Positions 16,898-32,726 of a stretch of DNA of 41,798 nt are shown one piece after another (within the stretch, counting starts at the first letter, position 1; each line of letters starts with the position of its first letter). The translations under genes and the position numbers were made by a program. Below the pieces are notes generated by a model, which was not told where the DNA came from, did not search any database, and saw nothing but the letters and a program-made list of their open reading frames with translations. The stretch is from Elusimicrobia bacterium RIFOXYA2_FULL_39_19 (GTDB taxonomy: Bacteria > Elusimicrobiota > Endomicrobiia > CG1-02-37-114 > XYA2-FULL-39-19). The stretch covers positions 1 through 41,798 of the forward strand of contig MGVC01000046.1 of NCBI GenBank assembly GCA_001800285.1, read 5' to 3'.

Positions 16898-18229
16898 ATG
16901 AAGAAAGTTGTACTAATGATTGCTGTAATAATGAGTTTTGTACCTATCATCTTTGGTTTCAGCAACACAATTGAATACCAGGGCAGGCTGAGAGAACAGG
17001 AAATACCCGTGACCGGTACAAGAAACATGATATTTAAGGTTTATAACCAGTCAATAGGCAGTGTTCCTCTTTGGGCAAGCAGTGATTTAACAGTTAATAT
17101 AAGTACGGGGGTATTTTCCTGTAGCTTAACACCTGAAATAGACTGGAGGGCTGGCGACTATTGGATAGAAACATCCGTGGGTAATAAAACCTATTCTCCA
17201 AGGCAAAAAATATCGCCGCAAATATTTGCAATACACTCAAAAACATCAGAAGGTGTATCAAGGGAGTCGGGAGTTATAAATTTTAATATAGCTGATAGTA
17301 CGCGTGTTATTGTAAGTCAAACTGGGACTCAGATAAATGGAAATTTAACGATTGGCGGTAATTTGAGGTTAACTACCGGAAAAATCGTTTTTTCAGATTT
17401 ATCCGAAATGACGTCAGCAGGAATAAGCAGTACTGCACAATTGATCAATTCACAGGATTCGGTAATTAGATCAGATTCAGATAATGATGGTACAGGTGAT
17501 ATAGTATTCTCAAACGGAGTAAATGAAAGAATGAGAATTAAAAACACAGGTTTTGTAGGAATTGGTACGAGTTTACCTGGAGAAAAATTAACAGTTTGGG
17601 GAGGAATTGGCAGTTTTGGCAGTGCTTCTGCAGAAGGCAGAGTATGTATTGGGGCAGATGATGGTACTGATGTAGGAATATATACAGATGGCAACAGAAA
17701 TCTAAAGTTGGATGCCGGAAATAATATTTGGTTTAACAAAAAAGTAGGTATTGGTACAGCAAATCCTGAAACAATTTTAGATGTAGTGGGAAACATTAAA
17801 ACAACAGGAAATATAACGGTTGGAGGAACAGTTGATGGAAGAGATTTGTCTGCAGATGGTATAAAAATAGATGAATTAAAGGAAATGTCAAAAAGGGATA
17901 GCATTTCAGGTGGTACCGGAGGGGATATAAGTGATGGAACAATAACAAATGCTGATATATCAGCTGCTGCAAACATTCTATTGTCAAAAATTAAGTTTGA
18001 TCCAAATGCTATGGCAAGTTGGACTTTTTCTGAATATCAAGAAATTATTCCAGATCCAGGGGTTTATTACTTGCTTGGAGAGGAAGAATCGAGTAAATTT
18101 AGAATTGTAATAGATAACGTTAATTATCATATGTGTTATGGGGTATTTGTTACGATGGGCAATATGAAAATAAAGGCAATGGATTGGGGTGGCGGGATTC
18201 GTCATATCTACTACTACAAATACAAATAA
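16898..18229 (+). CDS. Secreted tail-fibre-like surface protein
   Basis: The 443-residue product has a signal peptide at residues 1-22 (KKVVLMIAVIMSFVPIIFGF). The N-terminal domain (about 24-125) reads YQGRL, then IPVTGTRNMIFKVYNQ, PLWASSDLTVNISTGVFSCS and YSPRQKISPQIFAIHS. This pattern is common in exported proteins of uncultured bacteria. Phage-tail-fibre-like beta repeats follow, including GFVGIGTSLPGEKLTVWGGI and KVGIGTANPETILDVVGNIK. The last 55 residues are aromatic-rich (GGGIRHIYYYKYK). No enzyme motif is visible, and an adhesin or surface fibre is the best guess. The stop overlaps the next start by one base, giving a coupled operon. Confidence 0.75.
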   Translation: MKKVVLMIAVIMSFVPIIFGFSNTIEYQGRLREQEIPVTGTRNMIFKVYNQSIGSVPLWASSDLTVNISTGVFSCSLTPEIDWRAGDYWIETSVGNKTYSPRQKISPQIFAIHSKTSEGVSRESGVINFNIADSTRVIVSQTGTQINGNLTIGGNLRLTTGKIVFSDLSEMTSAGISSTAQLINSQDSVIRSDSDNDGTGDIVFSNGVNERMRIKNTGFVGIGTSLPGEKLTVWGGIGSFGSASAEGRVCIGADDGTDVGIYTDGNRNLKLDAGNNIWFNKKVGIGTANPETILDVVGNIKTTGNITVGGTVDGRDLSADGIKIDELKEMSKRDSISGGTGGDISDGTITNADISAAANILLSKIKFDPNAMASWTFSEYQEIIPDPGVYYLLGEEESSKFRIVIDNVNYHMCYGVFVTMGNMKIKAMDWGGGIRHIYYYKYK

Positions 18230-19476
18230 TGAAAAAAATACTAATACTAATAATTATTTTGCTTTTAACTGATAAATCGTATACAACTGTATCCTATACG
18301 AATGATTTTACAAGCAGTCTGCAAATTATGTCTGTTCCGGAGCAAATATATCAGGAAAACGACCAGCAGGATAGAGTAGATGCAGTTATTCAATCTTTTT
18401 CTCCGGAAAATTGTTTGTTTAATAGTATTTCCGGTGAAGATATATCATTTATAACCTTTTCATCTCTGGATTATTTAATTAATTCCGGAGATTCAGTGCT
18501 AACACCACCGCTAATAAGTACTGTTAATGTTGTTTCCGCTCTTGTTTTGCATAGGACTCTACCAAGATATACCACACCAGGTGCCCCGTTTAAAATTTAC
18601 GCAAATTACTCGGAAAGTATAGTTTTAGATACCACAAAACATTTTAAGTTAAACCTATACATGGATAACCAGCTGATATTTACAGATACAATGACATATG
18701 TCGATAAATATTCTACAGGAACGATATTTTCATACACTATTTCGTTAAATACAATTTCATCCAAATATAAAGTTCAATTTGAATTAGAAGATTGTACGGT
18801 TAATCAACCGACTATAATTTCATCATTTTATCCTTTTATTGTTTCCAATCCGCCCGGCATACCAATGATTGCAGGAAATGCCTTAAAAAATGGAAATATT
18901 GTTAGTCCGAGAAATGTTGTTTTTAACTGGAGTTGTGCGTCAAATAATACAAGTGAACAGTTGAAATACTATTTATACCTAACGAATCCGATAAATGTGC
19001 AGTCTGATTCGGATTATAATGCGCCATCAAGTACAGAAACAATGAGTTTAATATATGCCGGACATGATACTTCTTACATAATATCCAGGCTTAATGACAA
19101 TACAAAATATTACTGGTGTATAATATCCGAAGACTGCTGTGGAATACTTACACAAAGCCCCATATATTCATTTCGTACTTTTAAAAACATTACTGAAAAT
19201 AGTGTTGCGTGTTGCCCGAATCCATTTAATCCAAACAATGAAGATCAGAATATTGTTTTTAATGCAGAACATGAAGGCAGGTCAGAAATCAGGATTTATA
19301 CTTACTTTGGAGAAGTTGTATTCACAGATTCAATAAATTCTATTGAAGGCATAAACACATACATTTATAATGGGAAAAATAAACAAGGAGAAGTATTGAC
19401 CAATGGAAGTTATATTCTTTCGGTACGATCTGATGGTATAGAAAAGAAATCAACAATACTTATATTAAAGAGATGA
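18229..19476 (+). CDS. Secreted protein with fibronectin-like and FlgD/T9SS-sorting-like domains
   Basis: The product is 415 residues from the ATG at 18229, which overlaps the previous stop (TAATG). The reading frame is open upstream, but a signal peptide begins exactly here (KKILILIIILLLTDKSY). The middle is beta-rich without a recognised family. A fibronectin-III-like stretch covers about 215-325 (FNWSCASNNTSEQLKYYLYL, DNTKYYWCIISED). The C-terminus (about 330-415) has CCPNPFNPNNEDQNIVF, EIRIYTYFGEVVF and NKQGEVLTNGSYILSV. This is the layout of FlgD Ig-like and type IX secretion sorting domains. Surface export is inferred. The 3' end overlaps the PorV-like gene by four bases. Confidence 0.7.
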   Translation: MKKILILIIILLLTDKSYTTVSYTNDFTSSLQIMSVPEQIYQENDQQDRVDAVIQSFSPENCLFNSISGEDISFITFSSLDYLINSGDSVLTPPLISTVNVVSALVLHRTLPRYTTPGAPFKIYANYSESIVLDTTKHFKLNLYMDNQLIFTDTMTYVDKYSTGTIFSYTISLNTISSKYKVQFELEDCTVNQPTIISSFYPFIVSNPPGIPMIAGNALKNGNIVSPRNVVFNWSCASNNTSEQLKYYLYLTNPINVQSDSDYNAPSSTETMSLIYAGHDTSYIISRLNDNTKYYWCIISEDCCGILTQSPIYSFRTFKNITENSVACCPNPFNPNNEDQNIVFNAEHEGRSEIRIYTYFGEVVFTDSINSIEGINTYIYNGKNKQGEVLTNGSYILSVRSDGIEKKSTILILKR

Positions 19477-21278
19477 AAACGAGAATACTGCATATTTTAA
19501 CAATTTTACTTATAACAGCCGGTTTGAATGCTGACCTGCTTGAAAATTCAAGTGTAATTTCCCGTAGTATGGGAGGATGCGCCTGCCCAGGAGATATTTC
19601 GTCCGTTGCACTAAATCCTGCAATGTCCTTGCAGTCTTATCAGTGTACTTTTTCTGGTTCTAACTATCTTTTATATGACAATGCCCGCTTTAATATGCTT
19701 TGCTATCAGCAAAGATTTCCAGAATCATCATTAAGCATTCTTTTTGCCAGATTCCAAAAAGACAATATAGAAATAAGGCAGAATTTAGCAGATGAACCAA
19801 AATATACCTATGATTCAGAAATGGCTGCAATACTTAATTATTCTTTAATGCTTCCGTTAAATATAGCCGCAGGCATAAATTTTAAAACTTACAGCATTGA
19901 TATCTACAATTATAAATCAAATAATCCCCTGGGTTTAGATATAGGTATTTATAGAAATATATTTCAATCAGGAGAGGAATCAAAAAACAGGTTTTCAATA
20001 GGGGCAGGTGTTGCTGTCAGCAATTTTATAACGCCTAAACTAATTATGTGTGAACAATCAGAAACCTATAAAACTAAATCAAGGATAAGTACAGAATTTA
20101 AAATGACTCTATCTCCGCATTTCAATCAAAATAAAGCATCGATAGATTATGACACTCTAATTCTAAATATTGATTATATTAAAAACATAATGTGCGGATT
20201 GGAATATAAAAAAGGTAATTATGCCTGTAGAATAGGATATAATCCTGATCTAGCCTATAAAGTATCTGGAGGAATGGGAATGTACATAGGCGATATTGCC
20301 ATTAATTATTCTTTTACACCATTTATTGATTACGGGTTGCATTACCTGGAAATGGTCTATAAATTCGGTGAAAAAGTAGAATCAGAAATACAATCTGAAG
20401 ATATCGATGAACAAAGGATATTAATAAATAATACAAGAAGCCTGTATAGTAAATGCTATCAGGAAGCCTTGTCTATGATAGATGAAGGAAAATATGAAGA
20501 ATCAGTAATATTACTCGAAAGAATTATGCCTTTAGAAAAGGAAAACCCCAAAGCGAAGGAATTAATAAAAATATGTAATACAAAGATATCATACGGCAAA
20601 ATTAAAGCGATAAACACTGATTTTTCAAATGCTTTAAACACAAATGATATAAAATCAGCTTATCATCAATATTTTATGGTACTGGATATTGATCCCTTTT
20701 CGGTTGTTTCGACTGACATGAATGAAAAGCTTAGGGGTCCAGAAATAGAGTCAAAAATAACTAGAGATACAAAAGATTTTTATGAACAGTATGTAGAAAC
20801 AATAGTCAAAAATATTGATAAATATCTTTCAAAAAATAACTTTGACAAAGCAGAAAATGAGATTATAAAACTAAATCTCCTTGAACCAAGAAATAAAAAC
20901 ACAGCTTTATACATATTTAATTTAAATGAACAAAAAGCAAGATACATCAATTCGTTAATGGACGACGGATTGAAATATTGCGAGTATAATGAATATGAAA
21001 AGGCTTACTTATGTTATAAAGCTGCGTATAAGATTTCCGGAGAAAAAGAATTACAGGATAAAATTCGATATGTAAGGGTAAAGTATTCTACACAAAATGA
21101 AATTGATACTTCGCAGATGTTGAACCATCAAAAACAATACTACCAGGCTGCTCTGGCATTCGCAAAGAATGAAAGTACAGCTACTGATTTATTTACAGAA
21201 TTAAAACGCGCGAATATCACTTATGACTTTGATTTGCTTGAAACAATGCTCATGAAACACGCTAAAATAAAACCATAA
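19473..21278 (+). CDS. PorV-like outer-membrane barrel fused to a TPR-like domain
   Basis: The product is 601 residues with a signal peptide at 1-20. The mature start, SSVISRSMGGCACPGDISSV followed by ALNPAMSL, matches the entry signature of PorV/PorQ/UPF0164 beta-barrels (MGG...A..D..A..NPA). Alternating beta strands run to about residue 300. From about 325 the protein turns helical and repeat-like (CYQEALSMIDEGKYEESVIL, LSKNNFDKAENEIIKLNLLE, CEYNEYEKAYLCYKAAYKIS), consistent with tetratricopeptide-type repeats reaching the C-terminus. In type IX systems PorV receives cargo at the outer membrane. A role in handling the two upstream secreted proteins is an inference from the overlapping genes. 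Confidence 0.7.
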   Translation: MKTRILHILTILLITAGLNADLLENSSVISRSMGGCACPGDISSVALNPAMSLQSYQCTFSGSNYLLYDNARFNMLCYQQRFPESSLSILFARFQKDNIEIRQNLADEPKYTYDSEMAAILNYSLMLPLNIAAGINFKTYSIDIYNYKSNNPLGLDIGIYRNIFQSGEESKNRFSIGAGVAVSNFITPKLIMCEQSETYKTKSRISTEFKMTLSPHFNQNKASIDYDTLILNIDYIKNIMCGLEYKKGNYACRIGYNPDLAYKVSGGMGMYIGDIAINYSFTPFIDYGLHYLEMVYKFGEKVESEIQSEDIDEQRILINNTRSLYSKCYQEALSMIDEGKYEESVILLERIMPLEKENPKAKELIKICNTKISYGKIKAINTDFSNALNTNDIKSAYHQYFMVLDIDPFSVVSTDMNEKLRGPEIESKITRDTKDFYEQYVETIVKNIDKYLSKNNFDKAENEIIKLNLLEPRNKNTALYIFNLNEQKARYINSLMDDGLKYCEYNEYEKAYLCYKAAYKISGEKELQDKIRYVRVKYSTQNEIDTSQMLNHQKQYYQAALAFAKNESTATDLFTELKRANITYDFDLLETMLMKHAKIKP

Positions 21279-21376
21279 AATCAGGATTGTATTACTATTT
21301 AAGAACTCAAAAAAACAACGCGATTATAAATCAATCAAATATCTTCCATAAAACAACTGCAGAATGATATAATTTC

Positions 21377-21405
21377 TTGAAAAACACACCAAATTTAGGT
21401 AAAAT
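21377..21405 (+). promoter_or_regulatory. Sigma70-type promoter of the moxR operon
   Basis: TTGAAA (21377-21382), a 17-base spacer and TAAAAT (21400-21405) form a good promoter. The expected start of transcription is near 21411, about 27 bases before the moxR ATG. A CCGGAG ribosome-binding site follows near 21427-21432. It marks a new transcription unit after the surface cassette. Confidence 0.6.
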
Positions 21406-21437
21406 ACCACATCAAAAGAAACACACCGGAGAAAATA

Positions 21438-22436
21438 ATGCCTTCAGCAAAAACAGATACAGAACTTGTAGAAAAACTTGTTTCCGGACATAAACTAATA
21501 GTAGAACAGTTGAAAAAAGTTATCATAGGGCAGGATCAGGTAATAGATGAACTTCTCATAGCTCTTTTTTCCAAGGGCCACTGTATTATTGTTGGTGTTC
21601 CGGGACTGGCAAAAACACTTCTTATCTCAACACTATCAGAAATATTAGACCTGCAGTTTAAAAGAATACAGTTTACTCCAGACCTTATGCCTTCTGATAT
21701 CACAGGCACGGAAGTTATAGAACAGGATGCGTCTACCGGCAAAAGAGATTACCGGTTCATACCCGGGCCCATATTTTCAAACATATTACTGGCTGATGAA
21801 ATTAATAGAACTCCGCCAAAAACACAGAGTGCTTTACTGCAGGCTATGCAGGAGTTTAAGGTAACATCTGCGGGAAAAACCTATCCCGTCCCGCTGCCGT
21901 TTTATGTTCTTGCTACACAAAATCCCATTGAGCAGGAAGGTACTTATCCTCTACCAGAAGCACAGTTAGACCGTTTCTTTTTTCAAATAAACATAGATTA
22001 TCCAAACGAAACAGATGAAAGACAGATAGTTTTTCAAACTACCGGCTCGGCAATACCAAAACTTAATAAAGTGCTTGATGCAAAAGAAATTAATCAACTT
22101 CAGGAAATTGTAAGAAAAGTCCCGGCAAGCGATAATGTGATAGATTATACGGTAAAATTCACCCGCGCCACAAGGCCAAAAGATGCCAGTGCCCCGGATT
22201 TTGTAAAACAATGGGTTAACTGGGGTGCGGGCCCACGCGCCGGCCAGACTCTTATACTCGGTGCAAAAGCACGGGCAGTACTTAACGGTAGGTATGCCGT
22301 TTCTATTGAAGATATACAGGCGCTGGTCTATCCTGCTTTAAGGCACAGAATAATTCTTAACTTTCAGGCAGAAGCGGAAGGAATAACTGTAAATGAAGTT
22401 ATAAGACGTCTGCTGGAACATTTAAAGGTTGCTTAA
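21438..22436 (+). CDS. MoxR-type AAA+ ATPase
   Basis: The product is 332 residues. MoxR ATPases act as chaperone-like factors that activate or insert metal ions into VWA-domain partner proteins. Walker A is GVPGLAKT (about residues 53-60). Walker B is LLADEINRTPPKTQSALLQA (about 117-136). The sensor region ATQNPIEQEGTYPLPEAQLD is highly diagnostic. A C-terminal lid domain is present (about 250-332). Genes for a DUF58 protein and two VWA membrane proteins follow, the classical MoxR gene neighbourhood. Confidence 0.92.
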   Translation: MPSAKTDTELVEKLVSGHKLIVEQLKKVIIGQDQVIDELLIALFSKGHCIIVGVPGLAKTLLISTLSEILDLQFKRIQFTPDLMPSDITGTEVIEQDASTGKRDYRFIPGPIFSNILLADEINRTPPKTQSALLQAMQEFKVTSAGKTYPVPLPFYVLATQNPIEQEGTYPLPEAQLDRFFFQINIDYPNETDERQIVFQTTGSAIPKLNKVLDAKEINQLQEIVRKVPASDNVIDYTVKFTRATRPKDASAPDFVKQWVNWGAGPRAGQTLILGAKARAVLNGRYAVSIEDIQALVYPALRHRIILNFQAEAEGITVNEVIRRLLEHLKVA

Positions 22437-22518
22437 AACATATATATTTGTATAGAATTAGTTGTCATAATCTGTTTTTATTGTCGGCGCAATAAACGAG
22501 GTTTTTAGAAAAATAATC

Positions 22519-23412
22519 ATGGCAACAAAAATAAAATATTTAGATCCTGCCACACTTATCAAGCTGGGCAAACTGCAGTTAAGAGCTAAATATGTTGTTG
22601 ACGGATTTATAAGCGGGTTGCACCAGAGCCCCAATAAAGGCCATGCCTTGGAATTTGTACAGCACAGGGAATATACTCAGGGTGATGAATTGCGCCATAT
22701 TGACTGGAAAGTGTTCGGCAGAAAGGACAAGTTTTTTGTTAAACAGTACGAAGAAGAAACAAACCTCAAAGCCAATATTCTGCTTGATACATCAAATTCT
22801 ATGTCTTTCCGTTCAGAAGGCAATATAGACAAATTCACTTATGGCGTAAATTTATCAGCATGTCTTGCTTATCTCTTATTGAAACAGGAAGATTCCGTAG
22901 GGCTTACCATATTTGATGACAAAATAGGAAAATTTATTTCACCAAGAGCTCAGTTTGAACAATTTACGAATATAACAAGCCTGCTTGAATCAATTACACC
23001 AAGTTCGAAAACCTGCATATCAAAAGTACTTAATGAATTCAGTCAGTATGTTAAAAAAAGAGGGCTGATAATCATTGTGTCAGATTTTTTTGATTCACCG
23101 CAGGAAATACTAAATTCCATAAAACAGTTGAAATATAAACATCATGATGTGGTAGTTTTTCAGGTTTTAGACCCCATAGAAAGAAATTTTGATTATTCAG
23201 GGCCGGTAGTTTTTAAATCACTTGAATCCTCAGAACTCGAAGTGCTTACCGAAACGGAAGAAATTCAGGAAGAATACCTGCAGTTAATGGGGGAGTTTAT
23301 TGATGATTATAAAGCAGGTTTTATGAATTCAGATATAGAGTATTATCTGGTTACTACTGATACGCCTATAGAATTATGTTTATGGTCCTTTCTGGCTGGC
23401 CGTAAAAAGTAA
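22519..23412 (+). CDS. DUF58 domain protein
   Basis: The product is 297 residues. The DUF58 signature is present near residues 46-80: EFVQHREYTQGDELRHIDWK, then KDKFFVKQYEEETNLKA. A VWA-like metal site DTSNS follows in NILLDTSNSMSFRS (about 90-103), with SDFFDS later. There are no membrane helices, so the protein is likely cytosolic and works with the MoxR ATPase. It begins 82 bases after moxR. No convincing promoter was seen in that gap. Confidence 0.88.
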   Translation: MATKIKYLDPATLIKLGKLQLRAKYVVDGFISGLHQSPNKGHALEFVQHREYTQGDELRHIDWKVFGRKDKFFVKQYEEETNLKANILLDTSNSMSFRSEGNIDKFTYGVNLSACLAYLLLKQEDSVGLTIFDDKIGKFISPRAQFEQFTNITSLLESITPSSKTCISKVLNEFSQYVKKRGLIIIVSDFFDSPQEILNSIKQLKYKHHDVVVFQVLDPIERNFDYSGPVVFKSLESSELEVLTETEEIQEEYLQLMGEFIDDYKAGFMNSDIEYYLVTTDTPIELCLWSFLAGRKK

Positions 23413-28484: not shown

Positions 28485-28607
28485 TCCAGCGATTAAATTA
28501 AGTCCCGAATTCAGTCAAATAGCGATGAAGCGATAATGTAAAAACAATCTGAAACTCAAAAATAATAAAGCAGACCATTAAAATATAACAATTATAAAGT
28601 GAGTATT

Positions 28608-30608
28608 ATGCCTATTGTGGTTTTATTAATGTCTTTTGCGGTTTATCTGTTTACTCTAAGCCCTTCAATAGCTGTAGGAGACTCAGGAGAGTTTTGTGCC
28701 AGCGCGCAGATTTTAGGCCTGCCGCACAGTCCCGGGTATCCGCTTTACTGCCTGCTGGGAAAAATACTTATAAACATTGTTCCTTTAGGAAGCCTTGCCT
28801 TCCGTGTAAACCTGCAAAGCGCGTTTTTTAGCGCTTTAACGGTAATGCTGATGTATTTTCTGCTTTTAAAAATCACCCAAAATAAACCTGTTTCTGTCAT
28901 AACGGCCCTGCTTTTTGCTTTCAGTAAAGCATTCTGGCAAAGCGCAGTTCAAAGTGAAGTGTTTGCCCTTAATACTTTTTTTGTAATAATTCTGCTTTAT
29001 CTGCTTTACCTTTCAATTACAGATGACAAATATTTACTGCTTTCTGCGTTTTTGTTTGGACTGGGTATGGGAAATCATCATACTCTTATATTTATAACTC
29101 CCGTTTTCCTGCTGGTTTTATTTAAAAGATTCAAATTCAAAATATCTAAGTATCCTGTTATTCAAATCACACTTCTTTTCATTCTTGGATTTACCATTTA
29201 TGCTTATTTGCCCATACGTACTCTTAAAAACCCGTCGTTTGACTGGGGAAACCCGGAAAATATTAATAATTTTTTACGAGTAATATCCAGAAAAGATTAC
29301 GGCAGTTTTTCTTTGACAGTCGGGGAAAAACAGGGGTTGGATTTTATTACCGCACTAAAACAGGTAAAAAGATATGCTCTTACGCTTTCCGGCCAATTAG
29401 GCATTCTAACAGTATTTGCCGGGTTTGCCGGCTGGCTGATGTTTATAAAAAAAGAAAAGTATTACGGTTTTGCAAACCTTATAGTTTTTCTTGGTGCGGG
29501 GATAGGGTTTATTCTGCTTGCAAATCTGCCTTTTGATGCGCTTTCCGAAGGAATATTTGAACGTTTCTATGTTTTGCCTGCTGTGCCGTTTATATTATCC
29601 GTAGGTTTTCTGGCTGATTATGTTTATAAAAAGAATAAAATATTTATTTTGTTTTTTGCCGTAATTGCGGTATTTGTGTTTGTAAGCAACATAACACGTT
29701 GTAACTGGCGAAACTACTATTTAGAACATGATTATGCAAAAAATATATTAAAGACACTTAAGCCAAACAGTGTATTTTTCATGGATGGCGGTGATGATAC
29801 TTTCTATGGAATGGGTTATATGTGCTTTGCTTTAAATAAGAGGCCGGATATAGAGCTGCATGACAGGGGTGGGGTGGTTTTCAAAAGCGCTTACGGCGCT
29901 GATTTTAGAAGTTTGAGTTCTCAGGAAAAAGAAACAAGAAGAAACCGTGCTGAATATATCTTATCTGAAACCAGGCCCCTGACCTACTCTACCTTTAATA
30001 AGGAAGTACTGCCAGGAAAAAAACTCTATTTAAACGGAATTTTATATGATACACAAAAACCGCTATTTGATTCATGGGCTTTATACTCTCTGCGAAGCGC
30101 CTATGTAACCTATCCGGATTACAGGTCCAGAGCGCTTGCGCCGGTTTATACCTTTGTTCACAGCGAGGCAGAATCTGACCCTTATATATGGCTTGATTAT
30201 TCCGTAGCGCGCTTTAATGACTGCCTGTGGTTAAAATCCAACGTGTTAATGGTTTATATTTTTAAGGCTTATGATTATTTAGTAAAAAAAGATTATGATA
30301 AAGCAGAGCTTTACTATACCAAATCCCTTACTATAAACAGCAAGGATACAAATGCCCTGATAGGGTTAGGTGTAGTAGCGGAAAAGAAGAATGATAATCA
30401 AAAAGCCATACAGTGTTATCTGAAAGCCATAGCAATAAATCTCCGGTCAGTTGATGCCTATTATAACCTCGGCGCTGTTTATTGGAAAGAGGGAAACTGG
30501 GAAAAAGTGGCAGAGTATTTCAGTAAAACCCTTGAAATAAATCCGGACCATGCTCAGGCAAGGGCTTATCTGCCTAAAGTGCTGGAAAAGCTTAAACAAA
30601 ACCAATAG
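28608..30608 (+). CDS. DUF2723 multi-pass membrane protein with C-terminal TPRs (copy 1)
   Basis: The product is 666 residues from the ATG at 28608. A GTG at 28599 is also in frame but has a poorer upstream site. The DUF2723 signature is complete near residues 20-48 (AVGDSGEFCASAQILG, LPHSPGYPLY). About ten membrane helices span residues 1-350. A soluble domain and tetratricopeptide repeats (about 555-666, for example KAIQCYLKAIAINLRSVDAY and YFSKTLEINPDHAQARAYL) follow. The domain resembles GT-C glycosyltransferases. The eukaryotic member TMEM260 is a protein O-mannosyltransferase, so protein or surface glycosylation is plausible here but unproven. Confidence 0.8.
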   Translation: MPIVVLLMSFAVYLFTLSPSIAVGDSGEFCASAQILGLPHSPGYPLYCLLGKILINIVPLGSLAFRVNLQSAFFSALTVMLMYFLLLKITQNKPVSVITALLFAFSKAFWQSAVQSEVFALNTFFVIILLYLLYLSITDDKYLLLSAFLFGLGMGNHHTLIFITPVFLLVLFKRFKFKISKYPVIQITLLFILGFTIYAYLPIRTLKNPSFDWGNPENINNFLRVISRKDYGSFSLTVGEKQGLDFITALKQVKRYALTLSGQLGILTVFAGFAGWLMFIKKEKYYGFANLIVFLGAGIGFILLANLPFDALSEGIFERFYVLPAVPFILSVGFLADYVYKKNKIFILFFAVIAVFVFVSNITRCNWRNYYLEHDYAKNILKTLKPNSVFFMDGGDDTFYGMGYMCFALNKRPDIELHDRGGVVFKSAYGADFRSLSSQEKETRRNRAEYILSETRPLTYSTFNKEVLPGKKLYLNGILYDTQKPLFDSWALYSLRSAYVTYPDYRSRALAPVYTFVHSEAESDPYIWLDYSVARFNDCLWLKSNVLMVYIFKAYDYLVKKDYDKAELYYTKSLTINSKDTNALIGLGVVAEKKNDNQKAIQCYLKAIAINLRSVDAYYNLGAVYWKEGNWEKVAEYFSKTLEINPDHAQARAYLPKVLEKLKQNQ

Positions 30609-30671
30609 ATAAGATGGAAGTACTGATAAAAAATATTCTTATCAACCTATAAACTAAATGTTTTTAATAAA

Positions 30672-32726
30672 ATGAAAAAAATCGTATATGCTTGCCTGAT
30701 GTTTTTAATGGTTTTTGGGATTTATTTATATACCGTGTCTCCTGCCGTTACCAGCGATGATTCCGGCGAGCTTTCCGGTGTTTGCGCCACCTTGGGTATA
30801 GCCCATCCTTCCGGTTATCCAGTCTATTCACTTTTTGGAAAAATAATAAATGATGTTTTACCATTTGCAAACCATGCCTACCGCACAAACCTGGTAGCTG
30901 TACTTTTTGGCGCCTTAACTATAACCCTGGTTTTTCTTTTCATAATAGCTCTGGTACAAAACCCCACAACAATACAATTCTGTTTTGCGGCTATATTTTC
31001 TTTTATGCTGGCATTTTCCAGCCACTTTTGGTCCATGGCGGTAGTAACGGAAGTTTATACAATAAATTCATTCTTTGCCGTTTTGCTGATAATAATACTT
31101 TTGAATAAATCTTTAAAACCATTGATAAGAATGTATCTTGTTTCGTTTGTTTTTAGTTTTGCAATGGGAGACCATTATACATTAATACTATTCCTGCCGG
31201 GAATCTTGTGGTGGGCCTGGATAAACAGAAGAGAAATACCGTTTAATTATAAAACTTGCCTTGGCATAGCGGGTTTTATTCTACTTGGCGTATCAGTATA
31301 TTTATTTATGCTTGTTCGCGCACAGCAAAACCCGGTATTTAGCTGGGAAGACCCCAAAACATTGGAAAGATTTTTGGGGCTTATTAAAAGGTCCAGATAT
31401 AGCGGGCTTCTGATGATGACAAAACCTGTACCCGTTACGCTTTCATACCTGATAGGCCATGTAAAGCTTTTCATTTCAATTCTAAGAAGTGCTTTATCAG
31501 TATTCGGCCTATTGGCAGTTATGGTTTTTTGCTGTCTTGCTTTAATTTATAGGTTTAATGTATCTCTTGTTTTGTTTTTATTCGTTTTGTTTTCCGGTTA
31601 CGGATTTTTTGCCTTAACCCGTGTAAACATAACACCTGAGATGAGAGACCTGCTTGAACGGTTTGTTTATCTGCCACTGGTGCCGTTATGTGTTTTAGCG
31701 GGGAATGGAATAATAGACTTTTCACAAAAAAACAAAAATCTTTCAAAAATATTACTGATACTTATTATTCTGCCTTTAATCCTGCTTGTAAAAAATTTCA
31801 ATACCTTAAACCGAAGGAATGACTTTATTTTTTACGATTTCAGCCGGAATATCCTGAAAACCCTGCCAAAAGATTCAATTATGTTTACAGACCGGGCAGA
31901 TGAAACGGATTTTATAATAGCCTACCTGACGCGCATTCACAAATTAAGAAGCGATATTGCCTATATAGATTGCAATGCGGGTGTATCAAAAAGCATCTAT
32001 GGAGATAATTATTACACCATTTGGGGCCGGCCCCGCCTGGAAATCCGTTACAATGCAGAAACAAACATCATTGCAAACACAGACAGGCAGGTGTTTTACT
32101 CTACCGTGCTGCCAAATCAGGATTATGTAATAAACATACCGCGTTTCAGGTACGGCCTGCTGTATAAAGTAAGAAAAAGCCCGAATGATAACCTTTCATA
32201 TTTCCCGTGGCAGGAACTTTATGCTTTACGCCTGCCGTTAAAACAGGACATGAGAAGCAATTTCCTTTTTTACAGCCATTTTGAAACATTGGGGGATTAC
32301 TTTCTTGATGCAAACAGGGTAATTGAGGCACGGAAGCAGTTTGAGCTGTTAGGCCTAATCACACATAACAACATAAAACTTTCCACTATACCCTGGTGGT
32401 ACTTTAACAAAGGAAACTATGCCAAGGCTTTGGAAGAATACCTGAAACTTCTGGAACTAAAACCGGACTGGCCGGAAGTTATGGTAAATTTAGGCGTGGT
32501 TTATGAAAAAGTAAACAAAATTGAACAGGCAGAAAAAATGTACCTGAGGGCTGTGGAAAAAGACCCGCAGTATTCGCAGGCTTATTATGACCTGGCGGTT
32601 TTATACTGGCGCAAAAATGACTGGAAAAAAGTAACCTATTACTTTACAAAAGTCCTTGAACTAAACCCGAACCATTCTGACGCCAAAAAGTTTCTTGCCA
32701 TGGCGCAGGCAAACACCCAACGCTAA
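30672..32726 (+). CDS. DUF2723 multi-pass membrane protein with C-terminal TPRs (copy 2)
   Basis: This 684-residue paralogue of the preceding protein shares its layout. It has an N-terminal helix, DUF2723 motifs TSDDSGELSGVCATLGIA and HPSGYPVYSLFG, about ten membrane helices, a conserved HFWSMAVVTEVYTINSFFAV, and C-terminal TPRs (KALEEYLKLLELKPDWPEVM, YYFTKVLELNPNHSDAKKFL). The two copies clearly differ along their length, so the duplication is old. The start ATG at 30672 opens directly into the first hydrophobic helix. No recognised partner follows, and the restriction island begins 280 bases downstream. Confidence 0.8.
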   Translation: MKKIVYACLMFLMVFGIYLYTVSPAVTSDDSGELSGVCATLGIAHPSGYPVYSLFGKIINDVLPFANHAYRTNLVAVLFGALTITLVFLFIIALVQNPTTIQFCFAAIFSFMLAFSSHFWSMAVVTEVYTINSFFAVLLIIILLNKSLKPLIRMYLVSFVFSFAMGDHYTLILFLPGILWWAWINRREIPFNYKTCLGIAGFILLGVSVYLFMLVRAQQNPVFSWEDPKTLERFLGLIKRSRYSGLLMMTKPVPVTLSYLIGHVKLFISILRSALSVFGLLAVMVFCCLALIYRFNVSLVLFLFVLFSGYGFFALTRVNITPEMRDLLERFVYLPLVPLCVLAGNGIIDFSQKNKNLSKILLILIILPLILLVKNFNTLNRRNDFIFYDFSRNILKTLPKDSIMFTDRADETDFIIAYLTRIHKLRSDIAYIDCNAGVSKSIYGDNYYTIWGRPRLEIRYNAETNIIANTDRQVFYSTVLPNQDYVINIPRFRYGLLYKVRKSPNDNLSYFPWQELYALRLPLKQDMRSNFLFYSHFETLGDYFLDANRVIEARKQFELLGLITHNNIKLSTIPWWYFNKGNYAKALEEYLKLLELKPDWPEVMVNLGVVYEKVNKIEQAEKMYLRAVEKDPQYSQAYYDLAVLYWRKNDWKKVTYYFTKVLELNPNHSDAKKFLAMAQANTQR

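Follow-up and report, generated by a model that had tools for sequence, protein, structure and literature searches.

A phage-like fibre gene followed by a type-IX-like cargo gene and a PorV-family barrel gene in an Elusimicrobiota genome

In Elusimicrobia bacterium RIFOXYA2_FULL_39_19, a gene encoding a phage-like fibre (P0001) stands immediately ahead of the genes encoding a secreted protein with a type-IX-like C-terminal domain (CTD; P0002) and a PorV-family barrel (P0003). This arrangement raises the question of whether the three proteins could form a surface display unit, and which part each of them would play in it. A first-pass annotation of the window (i.e., the whole stretch of 41,798 nucleotides that was analyzed) had described two signal-peptide proteins followed by a PorV-like barrel and had proposed that these make up a self-contained unit in which the barrel handles both upstream proteins.

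The cassette and its three proteins

The coordinates, overlaps and order of the three genes were all confirmed; P0001 and P0002 overlap by 1 base (TAATG), and P0002 and P0003 overlap by 4 bases (ATGA). The N-termini of all three proteins, as judged by eye, resemble Sec signal peptides. The features of the cassette are as follows.

16898..18229, + strand: P0001, fibre gene, 443 aa
16958..17287, + strand: conserved N-terminal domain of P0001, common to homologues in 32 of the 60 searched genomes
18229..19476, + strand: P0002, gene for a secreted protein with a fibronectin-type domain and a type-IX-like CTD, 415 aa
18907..19143, + strand: fibronectin type III-like (FN3-like) domain of P0002, residues 227-305
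19216..19473, + strand: CTD of P0002, CHU_C/FlgD_ig/TIGR04183-like, residues 330-415
19473..21278, + strand: P0003, gene for a PorV-family barrel fused to a TPR-like tail, 601 aa
19530..20402, + strand: PorV-like barrel region of P0003, residues ~20-310, assigned by homology, not by a model
20415..21275, + strand: TPR-like helical tail of P0003, residues ~315-601

P0001 consists of a signal peptide, the conserved N-terminal domain (~21-130), a phage-type fibre (~111-338) that carries two VGIGT..P repeats, and a unique C-terminal tip. Its middle region matches PHROG tail-fibre families (E 1e-7 and 8e-6), consistent with the tail-fibre-like character first ascribed to this protein, and further matches were found to the tail fibre of phage S-CREM2 (E 4e-3) and, weakly, to the fibres of two Bdellovibrio structures in the PDB (8ol4 and 8ond, E 0.01-0.02). 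The N-terminal domain is absent from the PDB matches obtained; several of its homologues in other genomes end in phage tail-collar domains. P0001 has no export-type CTD. A phage origin of the cassette was considered and rejected, as P0003 has no phage match and the phage-like portion is confined to the fibre part of P0001. Relatives of P0003 were not found in the searched genome contigs and viral contigs, relatives of P0001 were not found in viral contigs, and no copy of the cassette was found near the RecA loci of named Elusimicrobia. Among the RecA loci obtained, that of Candidatus Endomicrobium macrotermitis is closest to the RecA of the window (68% identity), which fits a probable placement in the class Endomicrobiia.

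In P0002, residues ~330-415 match CHU_C, FlgD_ig, Por_Secre_tail and TIGR04183 just under the curated cut-offs; in the whole-genome run, the TIGR04183 match reached 24.3 bits, above the cut-off of 23. This CTD is common to seven P0002 orthologues, which, together with the CHU_C, FlgD_ig and TIGR04183 matches, bears out the initial description of the middle protein as ending in a FlgD/type IX-sorting-like domain. Across the P0002 family, the CTD also matches FlgD models, and for five of the eight family members there is a match to the last 100-140 residues of PorU, confined to the CTD. Apart from the CTD, P0002 is small and has an FN3-like domain but no enzyme domain; domain scans found no peptidase or sugar-binding domain. 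Structure prediction for the FN3-CTD fragment gave a pLDDT of 31.

P0003 matches PorV_fam (NF033709) over residues 35-295 with 48.6 bits, below the curated cut-off of 90, and by profile it is a relative of the PorV/PorQ family rather than a curated NF033709 member. PorV_fam is matched by all eight members of the P0003 family (best E 2.8e-31), and the family profile matches the solved PorV structure 6h3i (E 1.2e-11), in agreement with the PorV-like barrel recognized at first. Toluene_X is weakly matched by two P0003 orthologues. The C-terminal part of the family profile matches TPR proteins (E 1.3e-17), and five family members match Pfam TPR_2. A single-sequence model of P0003 resolved the helical tail as hairpins at 322-538, with a pLDDT of 70-88 over most of this stretch; a fold search with this poor model yielded weak TPR resemblance. 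The structure prediction that the first-pass annotation had suggested was thus informative for the tail but not for the barrel region (pLDDT ~22), and assignment of the barrel therefore rests on homology.

Two further observations concern the surroundings of the cassette. At 28599-32726, the window contains two adjoining TMEM260-like O-mannosyltransferase genes with TPR tails, which may glycosylate secreted proteins. The trio itself lies directly upstream of moxR and DUF58 genes (16898-23412), as does a non-orthologous fibre-CTD-PorV trio in genome G038 (L122, 6485-12651), in which the PorV protein has an OmpA and TPR tail.

Conservation and linkage of the CTD/barrel pair

Homologues of P0003 with both barrel and tail were found across the class. 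In a tree of barrels, P0003 falls among 24 PorV-TPR orthologues (local support 0.98), separated from every other PorV-family protein of the own genome that was included. In a barrel-only HMM search, two paralogues from the same genome score slightly above P0003 (121 and 112 vs 106 bits), so that its orthology is supported by the tree and by the CTD partner. Within its genome, P0002 is the best match to the orthologous CTD proteins (118.8 vs 79.0 bits), as is its CTD alone to the orthologous CTDs (64.7 vs 49.7 bits). By these comparisons, P0003 is a divergent orthologue of the class-wide PorV-TPR protein. Most of the genomes examined have the orthologous CTD gene directly upstream of the barrel gene, the two overlapping by 4 or 25 bases; in G026, G029 and G031, no CTD was detected beside the orthologous barrel.

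A single SprA homologue, a 1757-aa open reading frame on contig C81, was found in the own genome (3.09 Mb in 86 contigs); it matches TIGR04189 with an E of 5.4e-25 and 86.9 bits, below the cut-off of 200. SprA homologues are present in 46 of the 60 searched genomes. In five of these genomes (G008, G022, G028, G032 and G040), the CTD gene is followed by the PorV-TPR gene with a 25-base overlap and then, after a 6-base gap, by SprA. Across the 60 genomes, as counted by hand, 31 carry both the barrel orthologue and SprA, 15 carry SprA alone, one carries the orthologue alone and 13 carry neither (Fisher p = 1e-4), an association that is confounded by genome reduction, since several of the genomes without both are small. 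P0002 and P0003 are a genuine, class-wide, co-inherited cargo/shuttle pair.

The fibre gene is linked to this pair less regularly. It is directly upstream of the CTD/barrel pair in G000 and G010 and is found in the same gene cluster, before or after the pair in varying order, in G013, G019, G020 and G045; in most relatives that have both, fibre and pair are unlinked. By a rough Poisson estimate, linkage in six of ~24 genomes has a chance probability of <=1.6e-7, a value that overstates independence because several of the six genomes represent one family. All three genes do co-occur in relatives; their failure to do so would, according to the first-pass annotation, have refuted its proposal.

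Several loci encountered in these comparisons had additional features. In the own genome, a TraF_2/PorV2-like barrel gene (L071, 5380-7014) lies 2.3 kb from the SprA homologue. G041 carries a second PorV-TPR/CTD copy (L003, 766-1415 and L112, 4117-8995) beside VirB2/VirB3/VirB4-like genes, suggesting an integrative element, while in G024 (L113, 3366-5567) a small lipoprotein-like gene, together with secretin-like and CpaF-like ATPase genes, comes after the CTD/PorV-TPR pair. G019 contains two fibre genes in opposite orientation (L252, 7355-8368 and 10469-11464), on either side of two glycosyltransferase-like genes; they share a long stretch that is identical up to the C-terminal end, possibly reflecting an inversion or duplication.

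Further analysis of the own genome identified 49 PorV_fam matches, with 32 barrels above the NF033709 cut-off, and, up to an E of 1, 81 TIGR04183 matches, of which most exceed the cut-off. For 29 of the 42 full-length barrels, a CTD gene on that strand lies directly upstream, at a distance of -19 to +565 bases, compared to 0.4 pairs expected under uniform placement. For the 131 barrels listed from 11 relatives, a CTD lies no more than 700 bases upstream in 65 cases, with none downstream and none on the opposite strand; the 65 are a lower bound, as P0002 orthologues mostly escape TIGR04183. The order of CTD gene, then barrel gene is not absolute, since profiles built on the own genome also revealed, at L115, L119, L120 and L123 (genera g5 and g13), ~720-aa PorV-TPR-like barrels with a small CTD gene (113-162 aa) just downstream. 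The fibre cassette is therefore one of ~30 cargo-plus-own-barrel pairs in this genome and is not unique. Among the barrel tails, OmpA domains were found in two and, partly recognized by eye, LysM-like sequences in two and TPR-like repeats in several. On contig C75, near 36478, a 12270-aa open frame surrounds a weak CTD match and may represent a giant cargo.

Barrel and CTD divergence are correlated in the 29 own-genome pairs (Mantel r 0.70) and in the 23 non-redundant pairs (r 0.50), with p at or below 5e-5. The correlation persisted (r 0.39, p = 5e-5) for the 313 locus pairs whose cargos, apart from the CTD, are not detectably similar. This correlated divergence is not proof of binding; it argues for barrel/CTD pairs that were inherited together and are perhaps matched. 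Duplication of pairs as units could also give correlated distances, without binding specificity.

A proposed type-IX-like display model and its alternatives

The system has an SprA/Sov translocon homologue, PorV-like shuttles and cargos with a C-terminal sorting domain, all of which are features of type IX secretion (T9SS). GldM had no match in the own genome at E up to 1, in a search whose control genomes gave no over-cut-off positive, and the C25 sortase PorU (PF01364) had no match either, with the positive control also silent. Filing the system as a T9SS was rejected, as motor and sortase were not found in these searches, which had no sound positive control; by analogy, we would liken its working to that of the outer-membrane portion of a T9SS. 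The initial suggestion to look for PorU and SprA elsewhere in the genome thus led to one SprA homologue, on C81, and to no C25 PorU match in the search just described.

These results also changed the proposed interpretation of the cassette. While its core, a cargo/PorV pair, was retained as P0002/P0003, the unit cannot be regarded as self-contained, given that the SprA homologue is on another contig and, in five relatives, is clustered with the pair, and given the ~30 such pairs of the genome, which had been missed. Nor is the barrel expected to handle both upstream proteins, as P0002 but not P0001 has an export-type CTD.

As a whole, the data seem best explained by type-IX-like display in which PorV-family barrels are cargo-specific shuttles and anchors, a reading that we consider somewhat more probable than not. 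It draws on gene order and overlaps, homologies, class-wide conservation, SprA linkage in relatives, genome-wide pairing and correlated divergence. P0001, P0002 and P0003, presumably co-transcribed, would reach the periplasm by Sec. The SprA-like translocon, whose gene is located elsewhere in the genome, would then let P0002 pass the outer membrane, and the P0003 barrel would take up the CTD of P0002 and retain it. P0003, of the PorV family, would thereby be both shuttle and anchor in the outer membrane, with P0002 as its dedicated CTD-bearing surface protein. The TPR tail would be periplasmic if the barrel is PorV-like, and could tie the complex to periplasmic or cell-wall partners, so that a single chain would do the job of PorP plus PorE in Bacteroidota. 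P0001 would be a MAT-like fibre encoded by that transcript as well, with P0002/P0003 or their immediate vicinity as the probable site of display. Across the genome, many PorV-family barrels would each be responsible for the CTD protein whose gene immediately precedes their own, and the cassette would be the copy of this scheme that is locally linked to a fibre.

The role of P0002 could differ from that of a cargo. As a resident translocon accessory similar to PorU or PorZ, it would remain on the core PorV and assist with other cargos or the fibre, either in their processing or in holding them. This account, which is compatible with most of the display model and differs in the job assigned to P0002, is possible though doubtful. 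It fits a class-wide pair that is clustered with SprA in genus g5, the PorU matches of five of the eight family members, and the small size of P0002 with its FN3-like and no enzyme domain; however, the scans found no peptidase or sugar-binding domain, and the PorU match covers the CTD only, which is what any cargo would share.

The barrels may also be static anchors, with CTD proteins crossing by another route and being bound afterwards, and with SprA serving few substrates. Although the OmpA, LysM or TPR tails of many barrels would be suitable for anchoring, and motor components were not found (again in the GldM search whose control gave no over-cut-off positive), we regard this as unlikely in view of the CTD-barrel-SprA clusters in five genomes, the retention of SprA in 46 of 60 genomes and the resemblance of the CTDs to type IX sorting domains. 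PorV belongs to the FadL fold, and with the weak Toluene_X matches of two orthologues and the FlgD matches of the CTD this would allow for a FadL-like importer of hydrophobic compounds, incidentally paired with a protein whose FlgD-like domain is a generic Ig fold and not a sorting signal. Such an importer is very improbable, since it leaves the 29 of 42 pairs (against 0.4 expected), their strict order and strand, the correlated barrel/CTD divergence and the SprA linkage without a reason.

Relation to known systems and significance

In Flavobacterium johnsoniae, type A CTDs use PorV and type B CTDs use a cognate PorP/SprF encoded directly downstream (PMC12618676). In Porphyromonas gingivalis, the TPR/OmpA protein PorE binds both peptidoglycan and PorP, the latter holding a type B CTD protein (PMC9143113), and PorE-PorP-CTD anchoring is established in Bacteroidota (PMC9143113; PMC12618676). 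The Elusimicrobiota pairs resemble this arrangement in that a CTD gene is directly followed by its own barrel gene, in that many pairs occur per genome, and in that a TPR/OmpA wall anchor is associated with the barrel. Unlike in the type B arrangement, the pairs have a barrel from the PorV/PorQ family, and their CTD is nearest to TIGR04183, FlgD_ig and CHU_C rather than TIGR04131; NCBIfam scans of P0001-P0003 and their orthologues found neither a PorP/SprF barrel nor a TIGR04131 CTD. In addition, the anchor domains are fused to the barrel, which by analogy suggests PorE-like anchoring in one chain, no GldM is recognizable, and the organism is outside the FCB phyla.

With PorV, type A CTDs and SprA of the T9SS, the system shares a PorV-family barrel (6h3i match), a CTD with an Ig-like motif and an SprA homologue. 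Whereas the Bacteroidota PorV shuttle recognizes all type A CTDs, here there are 42 barrels, 29 of them with their own adjacent CTD, and PorU and motor were not found in the PF01364 and GldM searches, which lacked sound controls. In the PorU-PorV-PorQ-PorZ attachment complex, too, a CTD protein resides with PorV at the translocon, and P0002 orthologues match the C-terminus of PorU, but P0002 has no C25 peptidase or PorZ-like domains. In the literature searched, CTD/cognate-barrel pairing was found for type B CTDs with PorP/SprF and not for PorV. As judged from profile matches, a type-B-style logic of cognate pairing is built here on PorV-family barrels and TIGR04183/FlgD_ig/CHU_C-nearest CTDs.

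The architecture of P0001 (signal peptide, conserved N-terminal domain, phage-like fibre and variable or swappable tips) is similar to that of the Bdellovibrio mosaic adhesive trimer (MAT) proteins, in which a conserved beta-rich domain follows the signal peptide and the surface partner of that domain is unknown (PMC10769870); the weak fibre matches to Bdellovibrio structures are in line with this. P0001 differs in being shorter, in having no S74 domain and in being encoded beside a CTD/PorV pair. We hypothesize that the P0002/P0003 pair is the surface partner of the MAT-like fibre. A farther-reaching but doubtful reading is that Endomicrobiia (Elusimicrobiota) have a type-IX-like export without the Bacteroidota motor and sortase, with one SprA and dozens of CTD-specific PorV-family shuttles, many with their own periplasmic wall anchor, and that the pair in the window is the membrane mount of a MAT-like fibre.

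T9SS genes were stated to be absent outside the FCB phyla in a 2024 paper (PMC11285876), and no description of a T9SS in Elusimicrobiota was found in the literature searched. With an SprA homologue and PorV/CTD pairs by the dozen, Elusimicrobiota would be added to the groups that have this type of outer-membrane export, and PorV, regarded as one promiscuous shuttle, would have diversified into dedicated cargo partners. The natural barrel/CTD pairs make the specificity between CTD and shuttle directly testable, and the CTD/PorV pair is a candidate mount for phage-like bacterial surface fibres.
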